Part shown: positions 3-50,226 of the stretch, in pieces
How positions within the stretch are numbered: position 1 is the first letter of the stretch
Layout of the letters: every line of letters starts with the position of its first letter
Assembly (NCBI GenBank): GCA_014360645.1
Contig: JACIXD010000009.1
Coordinates: forward strand, 62,001-126,000
Source: Actinomycetota bacterium
GTDB lineage: Bacteria; Actinomycetota; Geothermincolia; Geothermincolales; RBG-13-55-18
Length of the DNA: 64,000 nucleotides
Direction: 5' to 3'
Made by a program: the position numbers and the translations under genes
The notes under the pieces: generated by a model
Databases searched by the model: none
Told to the model about the DNA's origin: nothing
The model's input: only the letters and a program-made list of their open reading frames with translations

Positions 3-1241
3 GCATGCCGGTACCGTCTCTTCAGCCTGGTCATTCCCGCCGTTATGGGAGGCCTGGCGGGAAGGTACATGCTCACCGCGGGCTCATTGGCCTTCGAGGA
101 GTTGTGCTCGACCTGCGCCGGGATCGGGAACATGATCGCCGCCTCCAGCCTGGGCGCCTCCCCCATGCTCACCCCCGGCGGCATGCCGCACTGGGACACG
201 GTGCTGCACGAGATGCTGGAGGGGGAGAAGAGGGGCGAGCCGGTGCTCATGGCCTACGCCATTACCGAGCCCTCTGCCGGGACCGACGTGGAGGAGCCGC
301 GTTTTCTCGCCCGGGCGAGGATCGGCATGGAGGCGAGGAAGGTCCGGGGCGGTTACCTGCTCAACGGCCGCAAGTGCTTCATCTCCGGGGGGAAGGAGGC
401 GAAGTACCTCACCGTGTGCGCGGCCACGGACCGCGAGCGTCCCCTCGAGACCTGGACTGTCTTCCTGGTTCACCGGGACATGGAGGGTTTCTCGGTGCCC
501 AGGGTGGAGCCCAAGATGGGCCAGCGCGCCTGTCACGCCGCGGAGATACTCTTCGAGGACGTCTTCGTCCCGGACACCCACGTCATGGGCTACGAGGGCG
601 ACGGTATGTCCACCGGCATCCTCACCATCATGGCCGCCTCCCGCGGACCGGTGGGCGCGGTGGGGACGGGCATAGCGCGCGGCGTCTGCCGGCACTTCCT
701 CGCCTGGGCCAGGGAGCGGAGGAACGGCTCCAGGCCCCTTGACGAACAGCACATCCGCATGGCCGCGGCCGACATGGTGGCGGCGGTCCAGGAATCCCGG
801 GGGCTGGTGCTCAACCACAGCCTGACCGGTGACGCCGTCTTCGGCAGGCTCCTGGTCAACCCGCTGATGAAGGCCATCTTCGCGCTCCCCAGGGAGGTGC
901 GGATTTCCAGGCCTTACCAGGCCTACCTCCATTCCCGCCACGGCAAGGCCACGGCCGCGCGCCTGCTGCGCATGCTGGTGAGCGAGGACGAGATGACCAG
1001 GCTCCTCGCCCTGGCCTCGCTGGCGAAGTTCGCCTGCACCGACAACGCGGTGGCGGTGGCCTCGAGAGCCCTGGAACTCATGGGGGCGGACGGGAGCGAG
1101 GAGAGACGCTGGGTGGAGAAGTGCTACCGCGACGCCAAGGTTACCCAGATCTACGAGGGCACCAACCAGTTGAACCGGCTCACCTATCACGACATCGAGA
1201 TCGGCGGCGACCTCAGGGTGGAGCTGCCGCGACCGCGGTGA
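3..1241 (+). CDS. Acyl-CoA dehydrogenase (5' end outside window)
   Basis: This flavoenzyme should oxidise an acyl-CoA at the alpha-beta bond and pass electrons to ETF or a similar carrier. The frame is already open at base 3, and the residues before the first ATG (base 45), RLFSLVIPAVMGG, read as normal protein, so the start lies upstream of the window. There are 412 residues visible. ITEPSAGTD (about residues 87-95) is the flavin-contact motif, and QIYEGTNQ near the C-terminus carries the catalytic Glu of the MCAD type (visible residue ~385). The segment around residues 255-300 departs from the usual sequence, so the substrate cannot be told. It begins a run of same-strand redox genes, although 323 bases separate it from the next one. 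Confidence 0.9.
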   Translation, partial: ACRYRLFSLVIPAVMGGLAGRYMLTAGSLAFEELCSTCAGIGNMIAASSLGASPMLTPGGMPHWDTVLHEMLEGEKRGEPVLMAYAITEPSAGTDVEEPRFLARARIGMEARKVRGGYLLNGRKCFISGGKEAKYLTVCAATDRERPLETWTVFLVHRDMEGFSVPRVEPKMGQRACHAAEILFEDVFVPDTHVMGYEGDGMSTGILTIMAASRGPVGAVGTGIARGVCRHFLAWARERRNGSRPLDEQHIRMAAADMVAAVQESRGLVLNHSLTGDAVFGRLLVNPLMKAIFALPREVRISRPYQAYLHSRHGKATAARLLRMLVSEDEMTRLLALASLAKFACTDNAVAVASRALELMGADGSEERRWVEKCYRDAKVTQIYEGTNQLNRLTYHDIEIGGDLRVELPRPR

Positions 1242-1564
1242 GGGAGGTGACGTGATGAGGACCTGGGGTTCAGGTCGCCCGGGCACCGCCTCCGCCCTCC
1301 GCATCGCGAGCGCCGGAAAGCGACCCTTCCGCCGCTGGACAGCAGATGGGGTGCCGGCCAGAGCATGGGACGGATCGCCGGCAACGGCCCACGGGGCGCG
1401 CGGCCCCTCTTCCCTAGCGCCGGAGCCGGTATGCATGGAGACGCGCGGGTATTCGCCCCGCGCCCGCAAGGCGGAGGGCGAGAGGAGCACCGTGAGCCCG
1501 TACGCATGCTCGGGATCGCGCGGGCTTTCCAGCCGCCCACGGCGTCCGGACAAGGAGGTGTGAA
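1242..1564. other. Intergenic, no supported gene
   Basis: A 103-codon frame at 1252-1563 follows a good GGGAGGTGA but encodes only Arg/Ser/Pro/Gly-rich sequence with no recognisable fold. The end of this gap holds the AAGGAGGTG ribosome site of the next gene. Confidence 0.6.
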
Positions 1565-2740
1565 ATGTCGGTGCTCTTTACCCCCGGCAGGATAGGAGAG
1601 GTGGAGATCAGGAACCGCTTTGTGCACGCCGCCACCTACGAGAGCATGGCGGAAGAGGACGGCAGGGTGTCCGAGATGCTGCTGCGCCGCTACGCGCGCC
1701 TGGCCCGCGAGGAACTGGGGTTGATCATCCCCGGCATCATGATCGTGCATCCCCTGGGCGACGTGCCGGGTCGCGCCATCGGCATCCACGACGACGCCAT
1801 GGTTCCCGGCCTGAAAAAGCTGGTCGACACGGTCCACGACGGGGGGGCGAAGATCTTTTTCCAGCTCCTGCACGCAGGCGCTCAGACCAACCGCCAGGCC
1901 ATCGGGCGCCCTCCCCTGGCCCCGTCGCGCACCGGCATCAACCCCATGTACCTCAACCGCGCCAGGGCCATGAGCGAGGACGAGATACGAGAGGCGGTAA
2001 GGGCCTTCGGCGCAGCGGCGCGGCGGGCATCGGAGGCCGGGGCGGACGGAGTGCACGTCGCCGCCTCCGGAGGGTATCTGCTCAACGAGTTCCTCTCCCC
2101 CTACTTCAACCGCCGCCGCGACGAGTGGGGGGGCACGGACGAAAAGCGCTTCCGGCTCGTGCGTGAGGTGCTCCTGGAGGTAAGGAGGAACCTCATGCCG
2201 GGGATGGCCATGACCGTCAAACTCACCGCCAACGACTACACTCCTGGCGAGGGGATGACCGCTCCCCTGGCGGCCAGGTACGCGGCCTGGATGGCGGAAC
2301 TGGGGATGGACGCATTGGAGATAGCCTCGGGCTGCACCACCTATTCGGGTTGGCATATCTGGCGCGGAGGGGTGCCGGTGAGGGAACTGGTGCGCGACCT
2401 GCCCGCCTGGCAGAAACCCGCAGCCTGGGTGGCCTTCCGGCGCATGGTGGGCAAGTTCGATTTCGAGGAGGGCTACAACCTGCGGGACGCGGAGGTGATC
2501 AGGGCGGCCATCGGCGACGTCCCTTTCATACTGGTGGGCGGGCTGCGTCGCCTGGCGCACATGGAAGAGGTGGTGGAGAGCGGTAAGGCGGACTTCGTGG
2601 CCCTCAGCCGACCATTGGTGAGGGAGCCTTCGCTGGTGAGGAAGTTCAGGGAGGGCTCCGCCGACGCCTCCTCCTGCATTTCATGCAACAGGTGCTTTGC
2701 GGAGATCGTGCACCGCAGGCCGCTGCGCTGCCGCGCCTGA
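1565..2740 (+). CDS. NADH:flavin oxidoreductase, old yellow enzyme family (dienoyl-CoA-reductase-like FMN half)
   Basis: This is an FMN TIM-barrel ene-reductase of 391 residues, starting at ATG after AAGGAGGTGTGAA. Family marks are the opening LFTPGRIGEVEIRNRF, QLLHAGAQ with the substrate-binding His, and LNEFLSPYFNRRRDEWGG. The C-terminus SCISCNRCF resembles the first cysteines of the [4Fe-4S] site seen in 2,4-dienoyl-CoA reductase and trimethylamine dehydrogenase, but the protein stops there and lacks their FAD/NAD(P)H half. The next gene encodes a separate FAD/NAD(P)H oxidoreductase with ferredoxin domains, which may serve as its electron input. Reduction of an enone or dienoyl-CoA is the likely chemistry. 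The exact substrate is unknown. Confidence 0.88.
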   Translation: MSVLFTPGRIGEVEIRNRFVHAATYESMAEEDGRVSEMLLRRYARLAREELGLIIPGIMIVHPLGDVPGRAIGIHDDAMVPGLKKLVDTVHDGGAKIFFQLLHAGAQTNRQAIGRPPLAPSRTGINPMYLNRARAMSEDEIREAVRAFGAAARRASEAGADGVHVAASGGYLLNEFLSPYFNRRRDEWGGTDEKRFRLVREVLLEVRRNLMPGMAMTVKLTANDYTPGEGMTAPLAARYAAWMAELGMDALEIASGCTTYSGWHIWRGGVPVRELVRDLPAWQKPAAWVAFRRMVGKFDFEEGYNLRDAEVIRAAIGDVPFILVGGLRRLAHMEEVVESGKADFVALSRPLVREPSLVRKFREGSADASSCISCNRCFAEIVHRRPLRCRA

Positions 2741-38384: not shown

Positions 38385-40769
38385 ATGGGCGGAGAAGAGA
38401 CGGACGAGAGGCACGGCAGGGGGGAAGAACCCCCGGAGGGTGGACTTTCGGGTCAAAAAGACGCCTCCCAAAGCGGTGATGAGCGGCGGGCGGGGGCCGA
38501 CGCCATCGAGAGGTACGCCAGGTCGCTCATCGAATACACCTTCGACCTCATCCTGCTCCTGGACCGCTCGGGCGAAATAGTCTTCGCCAGCCCCTCGGCG
38601 AGGCGTCTGCTGGGATACGACCCCGAGTCGGTGGCGGGGAGGAACGTCTTCGCGTTCCTCCACCCCGATGACCAGGCATGGGCGGCGGAGTTCTACCGCA
38701 CGGGCGTTGACCGCCGCGGCTACTCCCCCTATCTCATGGTGAGGGTCCGCCACCACGACGGCTCCTGGCGCTGGTTCGAGGCCGTGGGCAACAACCTCCT
38801 CGAGGACCCCCTGGTGAGGGGCATCGTGGTGAGCGCGCGCGACATCACCGAGCACCGCCGCCTTGAAGAGGACCTGCGGAGGAGCGAGGCCTACTTCCGC
38901 TACATCACCGAAAACACCCATGACATCATCTCCGTGCTGGACCGCGAGGGCAGGCTGCGCTACGTGAGCCCATCCATAAAGCGGATCTCGGGATACGAGC
39001 CGGAGGAGCTTCTCGGGAGATCCCCCTTCGAGCTGCTCCACCCGGAGGACACCGACCGCGTCGTCGCCGTCTTCTCCCAGGGGATCGAGAACGACCTTCC
39101 CTCCGCGACGGCGGAATACCGCTGGCTGCGAAAAGACGGCTCCTGGCAGGTCTTCGAGGCCTTCGGCATCAACGCCCTCGACAACCCGGCCATCGAGGGG
39201 ATCGTCGTGCATGCCCGGGACATCACGGAGAGGAAGCGCTGGGAGGAGGCCCTGCGAGAATCCGAGGAGAAATACCGCCTCATCTACGACTTCACGGGGG
39301 AGGCCATCTTCACCTACGACACGGACATGAGGCTCATCGGCGTCAACCGCAAGGCATGCGAACTCATAGGGTACGGCGAGCACGAGCTCCTGGGAAAGAA
39401 CGTGCTGGAGCTGAACATCCTCCACCCCGACGACCACGCGCGCGCCATCGACGATATACGGCGCCTTTCCGCGGGAGAAACCGTGCGGGACGAACTGCGC
39501 TTCGTCAGAAGGGACGGCGGCGTGGCCATAGGAAGCGTGACCGGAGCACCGCTTTACGACAGGGAAGGCAGGGTCATCGCCTTCACCAACGTGGCCCATG
39601 ACGTAACGGAACGCAAGCGCGAGGAGTGGCGCCTGGACGAACTGAGGCGCTGCCTCCTCGAGCTGGGCGCGGACCCCATGGAAAACATCGCCAGGATAGT
39701 GGCGGTGGCCGGCAGGGTGATGGGGGAGGGCGCGCTGCGTTACTGCCGCCTCGACAAGGGCGGCCTCACCGTGCTCTACCCCTCGGGGGAAAAGATCGAG
39801 CGGATCTCGGACCGGGAGGCGGCCGCCGCTTACACGTGCTACGAGGACATGCTCACGGATGCCGTGGAACCTCGCGTGATCGAAGACCTGGAGGGAACGG
39901 CGTACGCCCGGGACCCGGACGCGGCGCGGGAGGGGTTCCGTTCCTTCCTGGGCTACCCCGCGCGCCTGCGCGAGAAGACCGTGGGCATGCTCTGTCTTTT
40001 CGGTCGGGAGGCCGGGAGCTTCGCCCCCCCGGACATGCACCTCATGGGGATGCTGGCCCGCGCCCTGGCCATCGAGGAGGAGCGCCTGGTGCACGTGGAG
40101 AGCATCAGGCGCTTCGTGGATATAGCCTCCCACGAGCTGCGCACACCCCTCTCCATCATCAAGGGCTACGCGGATGCCTTCCTGCACGGGGACCTCGCGG
40201 GGATCGACGGGGAAAGCCTGGAGAAGATACGCATCATCAACGGCAGGGCGGACAAGATGGCCAAGACCATAGACGACCTCCTCGACCTCTCGCGCATCGA
40301 GCGGGGGCTCTTCGCGGTGGAGAAGAGGGAGGCCGCGGTGCCGCCGCTTCTCGAGCATGCGGTGGGCCAGATGTGCGAGAAGGGCGCCGGTCAAGATTTC
40401 GAGGTCCGCATCGGCGAGGGGGTGCGGGCGCACGCGCTGGACGCGGAGAAGATCACCGACGCACTGATCATCCTCCTGGACAACGCGGTCAAGTATTCCC
40501 CGCCCTCCTCCCCCGTCCTGCTGGAAGCCAGGCGCGAGGGGGGAGGACTGCTCATCTCCGTATACGACCGCGGGCCGGGGATTCCCGAGAAGGACCGTGA
40601 GGTCATCTTCGAGCGCTTCCATCAACTGGAAGATGCCGCTCATCACGCCTCGAGCGGCCTGGGCTTGGGCCTGTTCATCGCCAGGGAGATCGCGCGCGGG
40701 CACGGGGGCAGCATCTGGTGCGAGGCGAGGGAGGGCGGCGGCTCCGTCTTCAGGATGCTCATCCCTTAA
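38385..40769 (+). CDS. Cytoplasmic PAS-PAS-PAS-GAF sensor histidine kinase
   Basis: A 794-residue kinase. Three PAS domains (about residues 45-160, 165-290 and 295-420), each ending in a PAC motif such as IVVSARDITEHRR, IVVHARDITERKR and TNVAHDVTERKR, are followed by a GAF-like region (430-570). The H-box is ASHELRTPLSIIKGYADA (phospho-His near residue 583). ATP-binding boxes are DNAVKYSPP (N), DRGPGIPEKD (G1) and GLGLGLFIAREIARGHGG (G2). No membrane spans or signal peptide are present, so it senses an internal signal. No response regulator lies next to it, so it is an orphan kinase whose partner is elsewhere. Confidence 0.92.
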   Translation: MGGEETDERHGRGEEPPEGGLSGQKDASQSGDERRAGADAIERYARSLIEYTFDLILLLDRSGEIVFASPSARRLLGYDPESVAGRNVFAFLHPDDQAWAAEFYRTGVDRRGYSPYLMVRVRHHDGSWRWFEAVGNNLLEDPLVRGIVVSARDITEHRRLEEDLRRSEAYFRYITENTHDIISVLDREGRLRYVSPSIKRISGYEPEELLGRSPFELLHPEDTDRVVAVFSQGIENDLPSATAEYRWLRKDGSWQVFEAFGINALDNPAIEGIVVHARDITERKRWEEALRESEEKYRLIYDFTGEAIFTYDTDMRLIGVNRKACELIGYGEHELLGKNVLELNILHPDDHARAIDDIRRLSAGETVRDELRFVRRDGGVAIGSVTGAPLYDREGRVIAFTNVAHDVTERKREEWRLDELRRCLLELGADPMENIARIVAVAGRVMGEGALRYCRLDKGGLTVLYPSGEKIERISDREAAAAYTCYEDMLTDAVEPRVIEDLEGTAYARDPDAAREGFRSFLGYPARLREKTVGMLCLFGREAGSFAPPDMHLMGMLARALAIEEERLVHVESIRRFVDIASHELRTPLSIIKGYADAFLHGDLAGIDGESLEKIRIINGRADKMAKTIDDLLDLSRIERGLFAVEKREAAVPPLLEHAVGQMCEKGAGQDFEVRIGEGVRAHALDAEKITDALIILLDNAVKYSPPSSPVLLEARREGGGLLISVYDRGPGIPEKDREVIFERFHQLEDAAHHASSGLGLGLFIAREIARGHGGSIWCEAREGGGSVFRMLIP

Positions 40770-40916: not shown

Positions 40917-43259
40917 CTACCTGCCGGTGTAGGCCTCGGAGAAGAGCCATGCCGCGGCCGGCGAAACTACCCCGGGAGAGACATGCCCTCCGCGTATGGG
41001 CTCCCTTCTCTCCCCTTCCCTTCCCAGGTCGAAGTACATGGCCCTCTCGACGACCACGGGCAGGCTGGACATCATGTCCAGTGCCACCTGGGAGGGATTG
41101 CCGTCCGCGGCCAGCGCCGCATTCACGTCGACGGTCATCCTGGCGCGCGGGCCCACACGGTAGGTGGCGGAACGCGTGCCCTCCCCGGGTCCCAACAGGT
41201 ACCTGGCCTCCACGGTGGCGGCCTCGGGGTTGGGGTTCAGGACCAGCACATATTCGTGGATGCCGGGGAAGGCCGAACCCTCGGCGAACATCCACCTCCG
41301 CGACGGCTCCACCGTCCCCGTGGAGACATGCCCGTCGTCCCAGGCGCCGTTATAGCGGAAGTACACGGCCCTCTCGCAGGCGACGGGGCTGTCCGACCTC
41401 ACGCTCACCGATACGTCCGAGGCCGACGCGAAGAGGTCGTTAACCCTCAGGGTGCGGCGTGCCCTGGGGGGCAAGGCAAGTTCCCTGGTGACCTCCTCCC
41501 CCCGCGGCGTGTGGCAGCAGACCCTCGCGGTGGCCGCCTCCGTTCCCGGGTTCGCCACCAGGATCCAGGTGTCAAAATCGCCGGCAACCCTCCCTTCGGC
41601 GAAATACCATTCCCTGGAAAGAGCGCTCACCCCGGGCTTGCTGTGCCCCCCGTCGGCGACAAAGGCGCCTCCCGGCGAGCGGTAGAGGAAATACATGGAA
41701 CGCTCCGCCACCACCGGCAGGTCCGTCTCCACCCTAGCCGCCACCTCGCCCTGGATATAGGCGTTCACATGGTAGGTGCGGCGCGCTCCGGCCGGTATCT
41801 CCAGGTCCACCGCCATCCCATCGCCTCCCTGCGGCAGCAGCTCCAGCCTCCCGCGCGCGGTCCCCTCCCCGAAGTTGGCGATGCAGATATATTCATGGAA
41901 GGGTTGGGAATCCGAGGCGTAGCCCTCGGCGAAATACCACATGCTCCTGGCCTGCGGTGAGCCGAAGGCGTCCGAGCCCCCGTCCATCCAACCATGGTAG
42001 CGGAAGTACATGGGCCTCTCCGCCAGCAGCGGCGTCCCGTCCACGGAGCGCACCTCCACCGCGAGGTTCTTGTTCCTCAGGTTCGGGTTGGCGTTGAGGT
42101 CCAGGGTGAGGCGGGAGGACGCCGCCACCTCGCGGTATATCTTCAGGTACTCGCCCGCCTCGTCGCGGAAGACCACCTCCGCCCAGGTGGAGGAGGAGCC
42201 CGGGTTGGCTATGCTCAGAAAGGGAAAGAAGTTGTACGAAGCGTCCCCGGCGGCGAAGACATCCCGCCTGTCGTGGGGGAAGCAGGGCTCTCCCAGGTCG
42301 GTGTTGTCGCCGTCGCCGTTCCTGTCCCCCGGCACCTTCCCGCACACCTCCGCTGCCGTGAGGCGCGGGTCGCCGGCCCACGCGGGCTGCCCCCAAACGG
42401 CGCCGTTGGTGTTTCCCGGCATACGGTTCTTGCGGTAGGTAACTCCCTCCACCCCCAGGCGATAATGGGAGCCCTGGAGCAGCTCGTATCCGCTCCCCTC
42501 CGCATAGGAGGCGGAGAGATCGGGAACGGTGAGCTCCCCGATGGGCCTGCCGTGGTCGCGGAAGAGCGACTCCAGGTAGGAGGGGGTCGACCCCACGTTG
42601 GCGCTGGCGGTATAGGAGCGCGCCCCCGGCCCCGGCTGCAGGAAGGTGTAGGAGTACTCGTTCACCCGCGCGAGGACCTCCTCCCGTGACAGAAGCGCGG
42701 CCCCTCCGGCCATGTCCGCCGCCTCCGGGCCGGCGGCGAAGCAGGTGTGGCGCATGATCACCATGGCATCGGGCGCCAGCCTGATCTCGTCACGCCAGTG
42801 ACTGCGGTGATCCCCGAACTCCCGCGCCTCGTCCGTTCCCTCCACGGTGTCGGTGCGGGACGCCCACGCCTTGTCCTGGGGAAGGCAGAATCCCCAGCGC
42901 TCGCGGTTCCCGTGTCCGTAATAGACCACCAGGTTGTATCGGCGGTCAGACACGAAGCGGTGCAGGCGGTAGTGGGGGCAGGGGGTGAGGGAGCCGTCTT
43001 CCTCGTAGGCGTCCAGGACGTAAACCTCGAAATCGTATTTCCTCAGCGCCTCCACCGTGGCCTGGAGGTCGGGAACAGAGGCCGCCCGCAGGCTCTCCCC
43101 GGGCGCGAAGGCCATCACCAGGAGGGCTTTGGGCGTGGGGACCGCGGCCGCATTGGAAGCCGCGGGCGAAAAGGGTACCGCCGCCAGGAGAAGAACGAGG
43201 AGCGCGACCGGCATGGACGGGCCACGCAGCCCTCTCGACACCCCCGCAGGTCTCCTCAA
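40917..43259 (-). CDS. Secreted protein: caspase-like (clan CD-type) N-terminus plus WYFAEG/ERPMYF repeats
   Basis: A 780-residue exported protein; TTG at 43259 follows AAAGGAG, and residues 15-39 are a signal peptide ending SNAAA. Residues 42-200 look like a gingipain/caspase fold: ALLVMAF strand, a helix (DLQATVEALRKYDFEVYVLD), then YNLVVYYGHGN with H116 and AMVIMRHTCFAAG with C173, which is the hydrophobic-block-HG ... hydrophobic-block-C layout of clan CD peptidases. The region at 300-350 has NGDGDNTDLGEPC, a dockerin/thrombospondin-like Ca-binding loop. From ~380 to the end four copies of a module (ERPMYFRY...WYFAEG...VANPG) follow. No anchor is seen at the C-terminus. Peptidase activity is inferred only. 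Confidence 0.72.
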   Translation of the reverse strand: MRRPAGVSRGLRGPSMPVALLVLLLAAVPFSPAASNAAAVPTPKALLVMAFAPGESLRAASVPDLQATVEALRKYDFEVYVLDAYEEDGSLTPCPHYRLHRFVSDRRYNLVVYYGHGNRERWGFCLPQDKAWASRTDTVEGTDEAREFGDHRSHWRDEIRLAPDAMVIMRHTCFAAGPEAADMAGGAALLSREEVLARVNEYSYTFLQPGPGARSYTASANVGSTPSYLESLFRDHGRPIGELTVPDLSASYAEGSGYELLQGSHYRLGVEGVTYRKNRMPGNTNGAVWGQPAWAGDPRLTAAEVCGKVPGDRNGDGDNTDLGEPCFPHDRRDVFAAGDASYNFFPFLSIANPGSSSTWAEVVFRDEAGEYLKIYREVAASSRLTLDLNANPNLRNKNLAVEVRSVDGTPLLAERPMYFRYHGWMDGGSDAFGSPQARSMWYFAEGYASDSQPFHEYICIANFGEGTARGRLELLPQGGDGMAVDLEIPAGARRTYHVNAYIQGEVAARVETDLPVVAERSMYFLYRSPGGAFVADGGHSKPGVSALSREWYFAEGRVAGDFDTWILVANPGTEAATARVCCHTPRGEEVTRELALPPRARRTLRVNDLFASASDVSVSVRSDSPVACERAVYFRYNGAWDDGHVSTGTVEPSRRWMFAEGSAFPGIHEYVLVLNPNPEAATVEARYLLGPGEGTRSATYRVGPRARMTVDVNAALAADGNPSQVALDMMSSLPVVVERAMYFDLGREGERREPIRGGHVSPGVVSPAAAWLFSEAYTGR

Positions 43260-48438: not shown

Positions 48439-50226
48439 TCAATCCTCCGGCAGGAGCAGCTCGGTTACGGTTACGGGCTCGTAGCCCGAGGCGCGTAGGT
48501 CGCGTATGAGGGAGGGAAGTGCGCCGGCCTTCTGGGAGGCGTTTACGGTATGCATGACCACGATGGACCCGGGGCGTGCCCTGGACATGATATGCGAGCA
48601 GAGGACGCCGGCGGATATGCCCGTGTAATCCCGGGGATCGATATCCCAGTACACGCTGACGTACTCCAGGGAATTCAGCTGTGCCAGGGCGGCGGCGTTC
48701 CTCGACCCGTAGGGGAAGCGGAAGTAAGGTCGCGCCGCGTACCCGGTGACACTCGCGATGGCCGCTTCCGAGGAGACGACCTCGGAATACCTGGACTCGG
48801 CAGAGAGCCCGGTGAAATCGCGGTGGCTGTAGGAGTGGCTGGCGACCTCGTGCCCCTCTTCGGCCATGCGCCTGACCATATCGGGATATGCCTCGACGTA
48901 TGAACCCAACACGAAGAAAGTGCAGTGCACGTTCTGGGCCTTGAGAGCATCCAGGATGGCGGCGGTCGCCGCGCGATCCCCCTCGGCGTCGAAGGTGAGG
49001 GCGATGCGCCGGCACGCGGTGTTGCCGTTGAATATCTCTCCCGTGCCCAGCGAGCGCGCCAGCTCGTCGCGGTTTACGCTGCGCCACTCCGGGTTGGCGT
49101 TGCGGTAGCGGAAGTACATGGGGCGCTCGGCCACCAGGGGCACGCCGTTGCGCGAGCGCACGGCGATGGAGAAGTCGCCGCGGGAGTCGTCGGACCTCCC
49201 CAGGCCCAGGCCCGGCTCGTGCACGGGGATGGTGAAGCGGGAGTGCGGGCCCAGGTCGAGGTCCTTTTTCTCCTCCACCGTCCCGTCCCCGCGGTAGTAG
49301 GAGATGTCGTAGCGGGCGGCCTCGCCGCCCGGGTTCTGCAGGCAGAGCCAGGTGTCGAAGCCCTCGCGGGAGCAGCCCTCGGCGAAGTACCAGTCCGTGC
49401 GGGGGGCCTCGGCCCCCATGACGTCGTGGCCCCCGGTTATGGCGTTGCGGTAGCGGAAGTACATGGGGCGCTCGGCCACCAGGGGCACGCCGTTGCGCGA
49501 GCGCACGGCGATGGAGAAGTCGCCGCGGGAGTCGTCGGACCTCCCCAGGCCCAGGCCCGGCTCGTGCACGGGGATGGTGAAGCGGGAGTGCGGGCCCAGG
49601 TCGAGGTCCTTTTTCTCCTCCACCGTCCCGTCCCCGCGGTAGTAGGAGATGTCGTAGCGGGCGGCCTCGCCGCCCGGGTTCTGCAGGCAGAGCCAGGTGT
49701 CGAAGCCCTCGCGGGAGCAGCCCTCGGCGAAGTACCAGTCCGTGCGGGGGGCCTCGGCCCCCATGACGTCGTGGCCCCCGGTTATGGCGTTGCGGTAGCG
49801 GAAGTACATGGGGCGCTCGGCCACGATGCCGGCAGTGGACTCGACGGCCAGCGACACGTCGCTTTCGGGCGGGACCACGCCGCGTACGTTCACGGTCACG
49901 CGGCTGCGGGGAGGCAGCGCCTCGTCCCGCTCCAGCACCTGCCCGTCACCGAGCATATACCTGCAGGTGGCAATGGCCGTTTCGGGGTTGGGGTTGAAGA
50001 GGCATACCCACTCCTCGAACCCCATGCGCGTGCATCCCTCGGCGAAGTACCAGGTCTTCCCCGCTTTCCCGCCGCCCGTGACGTCGTGCCCGCCGCTCCA
50101 TGTGCCGTATGCCGCCTTGCCCGTGGCGAGAAAGGCGGCGTTGCAGAAGGCCAGCAGGCACAGGAGAAGGAGAGGCCGGAAGGCAAATACTTGCGCGCGG
50201 CCGTGCGTTGCGTGCGAATCCTTCAT
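48439..50226 (-). CDS. Secreted polysaccharide deacetylase with N-terminal WYFAEG repeats
   Basis: A 595-residue exported enzyme. Residues 17-39 form a signal peptide. Then come one divergent and two identical copies of a 115-residue repeat (WYFAEGC ... NPG ... ERPMYFRYRNA). The C-terminal ~200 residues are a NodB deacetylase: ALTFDAEGD (first Asp and metal Asp region), HSYSHRDF (metal His pair), RFPYGSRN, DIDPRDY and IVVMHTV. It should remove acetyl groups from peptidoglycan, chitin-like or capsular sugars outside the cell, with the repeats as spacer or binding modules. The same repeat family is in the secreted protein at 40917-43259. Its ribosome site is weak. Confidence 0.85.
   Translation of the reverse strand: MKDSHATHGRAQVFAFRPLLLLCLLAFCNAAFLATGKAAYGTWSGGHDVTGGGKAGKTWYFAEGCTRMGFEEWVCLFNPNPETAIATCRYMLGDGQVLERDEALPPRSRVTVNVRGVVPPESDVSLAVESTAGIVAERPMYFRYRNAITGGHDVMGAEAPRTDWYFAEGCSREGFDTWLCLQNPGGEAARYDISYYRGDGTVEEKKDLDLGPHSRFTIPVHEPGLGLGRSDDSRGDFSIAVRSRNGVPLVAERPMYFRYRNAITGGHDVMGAEAPRTDWYFAEGCSREGFDTWLCLQNPGGEAARYDISYYRGDGTVEEKKDLDLGPHSRFTIPVHEPGLGLGRSDDSRGDFSIAVRSRNGVPLVAERPMYFRYRNANPEWRSVNRDELARSLGTGEIFNGNTACRRIALTFDAEGDRAATAAILDALKAQNVHCTFFVLGSYVEAYPDMVRRMAEEGHEVASHSYSHRDFTGLSAESRYSEVVSSEAAIASVTGYAARPYFRFPYGSRNAAALAQLNSLEYVSVYWDIDPRDYTGISAGVLCSHIMSRARPGSIVVMHTVNASQKAGALPSLIRDLRASGYEPVTVTELLLPED
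49096..49824. repeat. 345-bp tandem repeat, two identical copies plus partial third
   Basis: Copies start at 49096 and 49441, each 345 bases and identical in every base I compared, including codon third positions. A third start at 49786 matches for 39 bases and then diverges. The unit encodes 115 residues of the deacetylase repeat region. Confidence 0.92.

Follow-up and report, generated by a model that had tools for sequence, protein, structure and literature searches.

A gene of the analysed window, a 64,000-nucleotide stretch of an actinobacterial genome, encodes a 780-residue protein, probably a protease that is bound to the surface and belongs to a family not yet described. The N-terminal domain looks like a caspase-fold (clan-CD-like) domain by structure prediction, and the C-terminal part is a tetrad of ASRAH repeats (Table 1). 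Computation supports the export-type N-terminus, the fold, the placement and conservation of the His and Cys dyad, the identity of the repeats, and the four-copy architecture. The preferred reading, with a probability of about 0.6, is an active cysteine protease that the ASRAH tetrad keeps at the cell surface.

Table 1. Features of the gene and its product, with positions in the window
Feature	Position	Strand	Basis
Complete gene	40917..43259	(-)	780 aa, TTG start; AAGGAG at 43274-43269, about 9 nt upstream of the start
Signal-peptide-like N-terminus, residues 1 to about 39	43143..43259	(-)	Basic start and hydrophobic run
Caspase-fold-like domain, residues about 41-300	42360..43139	(-)	AlphaFold, Foldseek, C14/C25 profile comparison
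H116-G117, putative catalytic His-Gly after strand 3 (residues 110-114)	42909..42914	(-)	Model and invariance; H116 codon 42914-42912, within VVYYGHGN
C173, putative nucleophile after strand 4 (residues 166-170)	42741..42743	(-)	Model and invariance; codon 42743-42741, within AMVIMRHTCFAAG
Calcium-loop-like linker DRNGDGDNTDLGE, D312-E324	42288..42326	(-)	Conserved in 9/9 family members
ASRAH repeat 1 (residues 335-436), without first-strand Trp	41952..42257	(-)	HMM i-E 7.5e-17
ASRAH repeat 2 (441-549), carries FHEYICIAN	41613..41939	(-)	HMM; signature from PMC2739507
ASRAH repeat 3 (551-654)	41298..41609	(-)	HMM; DUF5719 match at 564-624
ASRAH repeat 4 (656-768)	40956..41294	(-)	HMM
Lone C-terminal W-strand WLFSEAYTGR (771-780)	40920..40949	(-)	Conserved in 8/8 orthologues; predicted strand

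The host, an actinobacterium of hot-spring type, lies near Candidatus Solincola, and the nearest named record encoding the N-terminal domain is Ca. Solincola daggyaiensis (86% identity). The signal-peptide-like N-terminus, which is also present in homologues with an intact 5' end, indicates that the protein is probably exported, in line with the original prediction. A frameshifted or truncated C-terminus was considered and ruled out: all orthologues finish in the same strand, so the end of the protein is natural. A multi-PAS/GAF histidine kinase (window 38385-40769, +) lies tail-to-tail with the gene. This convergent layout is kept in three related genomes, which marks the caspase-like gene as an ordinary resident gene. 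A link in function between the kinase and the caspase-like gene is possible.

MEROPS clan CD comprises endopeptidases with P1 specificity, in which the sheet order is 2-1-3-4 and the His and Cys lie close in space. Clan CD peptidases have a β1-α1-β2-α2-β3-β4 core with the dyad at the ends of β3 and β4 (PMC4357240), and their hallmark is a His-Gly ahead of the Cys, each following a hydrophobic strand (PMC4357240, PMC12445089). The alignment and the AlphaFold model place both motifs of the N-terminal domain in this way. Residues 36-330 were modelled from an alignment of nine sequences, and the best model reached a pLDDT of 82.9 and a pTM of 0.86, with mean pLDDT ranging from 62.6 to 82.9 over the five models. 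Predicted core strands span residues 44-49, 78-83, 110-114, and 166-170. The modelled order is strand, helix, strand, helix, strand with H116, helices, strand with C173, helices, strand. In the model, the placement of H116 and C173 and the succession of core elements match the clan CD core of PMC4357240.

Structure searches with Foldseek lead to the same fold. Against the PDB, the top eight matches are SAVED-CHAT, caspase-9, C11, caspase-1, C11, caspase-3, caspase-3, and caspase-7; the caspase-fold matches have probabilities of 0.85-0.99, E-values of at least 1.7e-3, and query TM-scores of 0.22-0.37. An independent viral library gives an executioner caspase, a C11 protease, and two further caspases as its four best matches, and five of its first six are caspases, a metacaspase, or C11. 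The best E-value across both libraries is 1.4e-3, with none under 0.001. Azoreductases and phage autolysins rank lower in these searches. The argument for a caspase fold is the agreement of the two libraries, neither search being conclusive alone. The original prediction had named structure prediction as its check, and the models favor it: the predicted His and Cys follow consecutive core strands, and caspase-fold proteins lead both libraries.

A profile of the family, in two query versions, was compared with profiles of C14, C25, C11, and CHAT that had been derived from actinobacterial genomes. Scores with C14 were 25.0 and 31.1, where shuffled profiles gave at most 21.5 and 17.5, and none of 100 shuffles reached the observed value. 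Scores with C25 were 31.7 and 29.7, with shuffled maxima of 22.0 and 21.5 (0 of 60 shuffles). Reversed decoys for C14 and C25 stayed at noise level. The local hhalign alignment with C14 pairs YYGHG with the caspase GHG and RHTC with DAC, so that His and Cys are in register. Known clan CD families score 11.6-38.4 against one another in the same comparison; the distance of the N-domain family from C14 and C25 is thus similar to that between those two. C11 and CHAT scored at noise level. No C14, C25, C11, or CHAT match passed the Pfam cut-off in the protein (hmmscan) or, with these four models, in its whole genome, and searches of Pfam, NCBIfam, and PDB sequences returned no peptidase match to the protein. 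As no Pfam or NCBIfam peptidase model matches, the domain looks like an unrecognised clan-CD-like family.

Nine homologous N-domains come from 8 of the 15 genomes of the host's own taxonomic family (7 besides its own). H116 is invariant across the eight members whose sequence includes it, and C173 across all nine; L038 is cut off before the His and is left out of the first count. The family is probably dispensable, being unseen in the other 7 of the 15 genomes, some of which are incomplete. Because the searched collections sample a single phylum, the family may extend further than these counts show. One distant relative (L047), from another class, turned up in a set of about 300 genomes of this phylum; it has 24-28% identity in the N-domain, and H116 and C173 are still invariant once it joins the alignment. 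Its C-terminal domain is a different one, Cu_amine_oxidN1, so the conservation of the dyad is independent of the repeats. The original prediction had H116 in VVYYGHGN and C173 in AMVIMRHTCFAAG, each behind a hydrophobic block; both residues lie where it put them, and their invariance in homologues goes beyond chance.

The L047 protein, encoded at 811-2055 (-), pairs a caspase-like part with a copper amine oxidase N-terminal domain; it was found in 1 of 36 genomes of its class. Another actinobacterium has a short, weak match to the N-domain profile (L048; G261:C11:37079-37237, -; E 8.5e-4), which covers profile positions 229-281 and has one stop inside. Queried with the L047 domain, plasmids gave no relatives.

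The N-terminal domain is followed by an Asp-rich linker, the calcium-loop-like segment already pointed out from the sequence. It is present as described, and the pattern VPGDxN(G/A)DGDN(T/S)DxGEP is kept in all nine family members. The linker may bind calcium.

The repeat had been taken for an undescribed one. It belongs instead to the ASRAH superfamily (ASRT PF07100, DUF5719 PF18986), published by De Souza, Iyer, and Aravind in 2009 (PMC2739507). Its hallmarks are a Trp in the first strand and an Asn ending strand 2, and small-molecule or sugar binding was predicted for it; the structure behind that work is 1nc7 (TM1070), in which the His and Cys of the ASRT strand SHEshChhN contact ligand (PMC2739507). 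ASRAH tetrads fused to amidase were described in the same paper (PMC2739507). A literature search on DUF5719 found no paper. The HMM confirms the four expected copies and adds the lone C-terminal strand. In repeats 2-4 the first-strand Trp is invariant (W111, W221, W326; A2 numbering), repeat 1 is without it, and W441 is the Trp of the lone strand. The Asn ending strand 2 (N22, N132, N240, N345; A2 numbering) is invariant in 8/8. In repeat 2, FHEYICIAN resembles SHEshChhN and retains an HExxCxxN signature, with the Cys in 8/8 and the His in 6/8 orthologues. A paralogue of the same architecture (L039) passes the Pfam ASRT cut-off, as do sister proteins. AlphaFold models residues 331-780 with a pLDDT of 81.1 and a pTM of 0.84, and 1nc7_B matches this model with a Foldseek probability of 1.00, a TMt of 0.68, and 23% identity. 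The top Foldseek matches of the repeat model were discarded as multi-domain artefacts, with hundreds of columns and an rmsd above 20.

The Trp strand is missing at the front of the tetrad, and an extra one stands at its end, residues 440-447 of the repeat model. Its motif pattern is EWEWEWEW, a circular shift of the WEWEWEWE found in others of the genome. This arrangement suggests that repeat 1 may be completed by the C-terminal strand, which would close the four domains into a ring. All five proteins of the genome that end in a Trp strand start without a recognisable one. About one third of the other ASRAH proteins also seem to start without it, for which the crude pattern is part of the cause. 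Apart from the 780-residue protein, the five comprise L132, L140, L110, and L121, whose lone terminal W-strand reads WYFAEGYTGS or similar; they suggest a class of circularly shifted tetrads.

A search of the whole 3.38 Mb genome found 116 pieces matching the repeat. In the fetched regions, 52 open segments of at least 150 aa carry repeats, 30 of them exactly four copies, the 52 including a few fragments of one gene or segments running off a region edge. Most of the 30 non-repeat parts scanned carry known, mainly secreted domains. The partners include five subtilases, two YkuD (L,D-transpeptidases), two SpoIID, a polysaccharide deacetylase, and Amidase_3, as well as NlpC/P60 with SLH, CAP, GH39, M28, PGA_cap, 5'-nucleotidase, and beta-propellers. 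Within the window, a second polysaccharide deacetylase with ASRAH/DUF5719 repeats (48439-50226, -) bears the same module as the caspase-like protein. About 50 ASRAH ORFs, mostly in fours and on many unrelated domains, are a large expansion for a 3.4 Mb genome. The tetrad is thus a genome-wide module carried by dozens of other secreted proteins, which the original prediction could not see. Its general use on exported proteins makes it natural to read the attached caspase-like domain as an enzyme.

Inactive members exist among caspase-fold proteins at large. The domain could accordingly be a caspase fold devoid of peptidase activity that serves the ASRAH tetrad as a scaffold for binding or as a structural cap; the narrowness of the family fits this, and proteolysis is inferred. 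The dyad is invariant in every homologue that covers it, even in one that has no ASRAH tetrad, which is unexpected for a pseudo-enzyme. This reading is unlikely, and an active enzyme is favored over it because H116 and C173 are both conserved. The C80 family of clan CD is self-cleaving. By analogy, the His/Cys pair might make a single cut in its own chain, such as one close to the Asp-rich linker, and release or activate the tetrad. Internal processing and activation by calcium or a ligand have precedents in clan CD (PMC4357240), and the linker VPGDxNGDGDNTDxGEP is conserved. Yet the sequence reveals no conserved cleavage site, and the L047 relative is without the linker, leaving self-processing decidedly unlikely.

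A different alpha/beta fold, flavodoxin-like or of a hydrolase resembling N-acetylmuramoyl-L-alanine amidase, would make the HG and C motifs coincidental. The lower-ranking azoreductases and phage autolysins and the marginal Foldseek E-values all allow for it. Against it, caspase-fold proteins top both libraries, and hhalign sets His and Cys in register with C14; such a fold is very improbable.

Under the preferred reading, that of an active surface protease, H116 would activate C173 to attack peptide bonds within the caspase-fold domain of an exported cysteine peptidase. The conserved Asp-rich loop would join this domain to the tetrad of ASRAH beta-sandwich domains. By binding a glycan or related small molecule, the tetrad may retain the enzyme at the cell envelope, paralleling its presumed use on many other surface enzymes of the same genome. 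Gingipains process the cargo of their own secretion system. A broader proposal by analogy is that the 780-residue protein founds a new clan CD family that processes or retains the roughly 50 other ASRAH surface proteins, with the closed-ring tetrad as a shared envelope-attachment system; this is quite unlikely. The protein likely adds an unrecognised branch to the caspase-fold proteases. Moreover, a little-studied, putatively sugar-binding domain emerges as a module that an uncultured lineage of actinobacteria has reused heavily in its secreted proteins.

The N-domain shares with the C14 and C25 families of MEROPS clan CD the order of HG then C at the ends of consecutive core strands, a caspase-like fold by prediction, and profile scores above shuffled controls. 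Like gingipain (C25), the protein appears to be secreted, judging by its signal-peptide-like N-terminus. In contrast to C14 and C25, the domain has no Pfam match, a large variable insert between His and Cys, and a C-terminal ASRAH tetrad, and Thr rather than their Ala precedes the Cys in most members. The L047-type protein shares the HG and C motifs; unlike the 780-residue protein, it has no ASRAH repeats, no Asp-rich linker, and a shorter His-to-Cys insert. With the ASRAH superfamily, the repeats share the first-strand Trp, the Asn ending strand 2, and a 1nc7-like fold. They differ in being fused to a clan-CD-like domain and in the shifted Trp strand of their tetrad.
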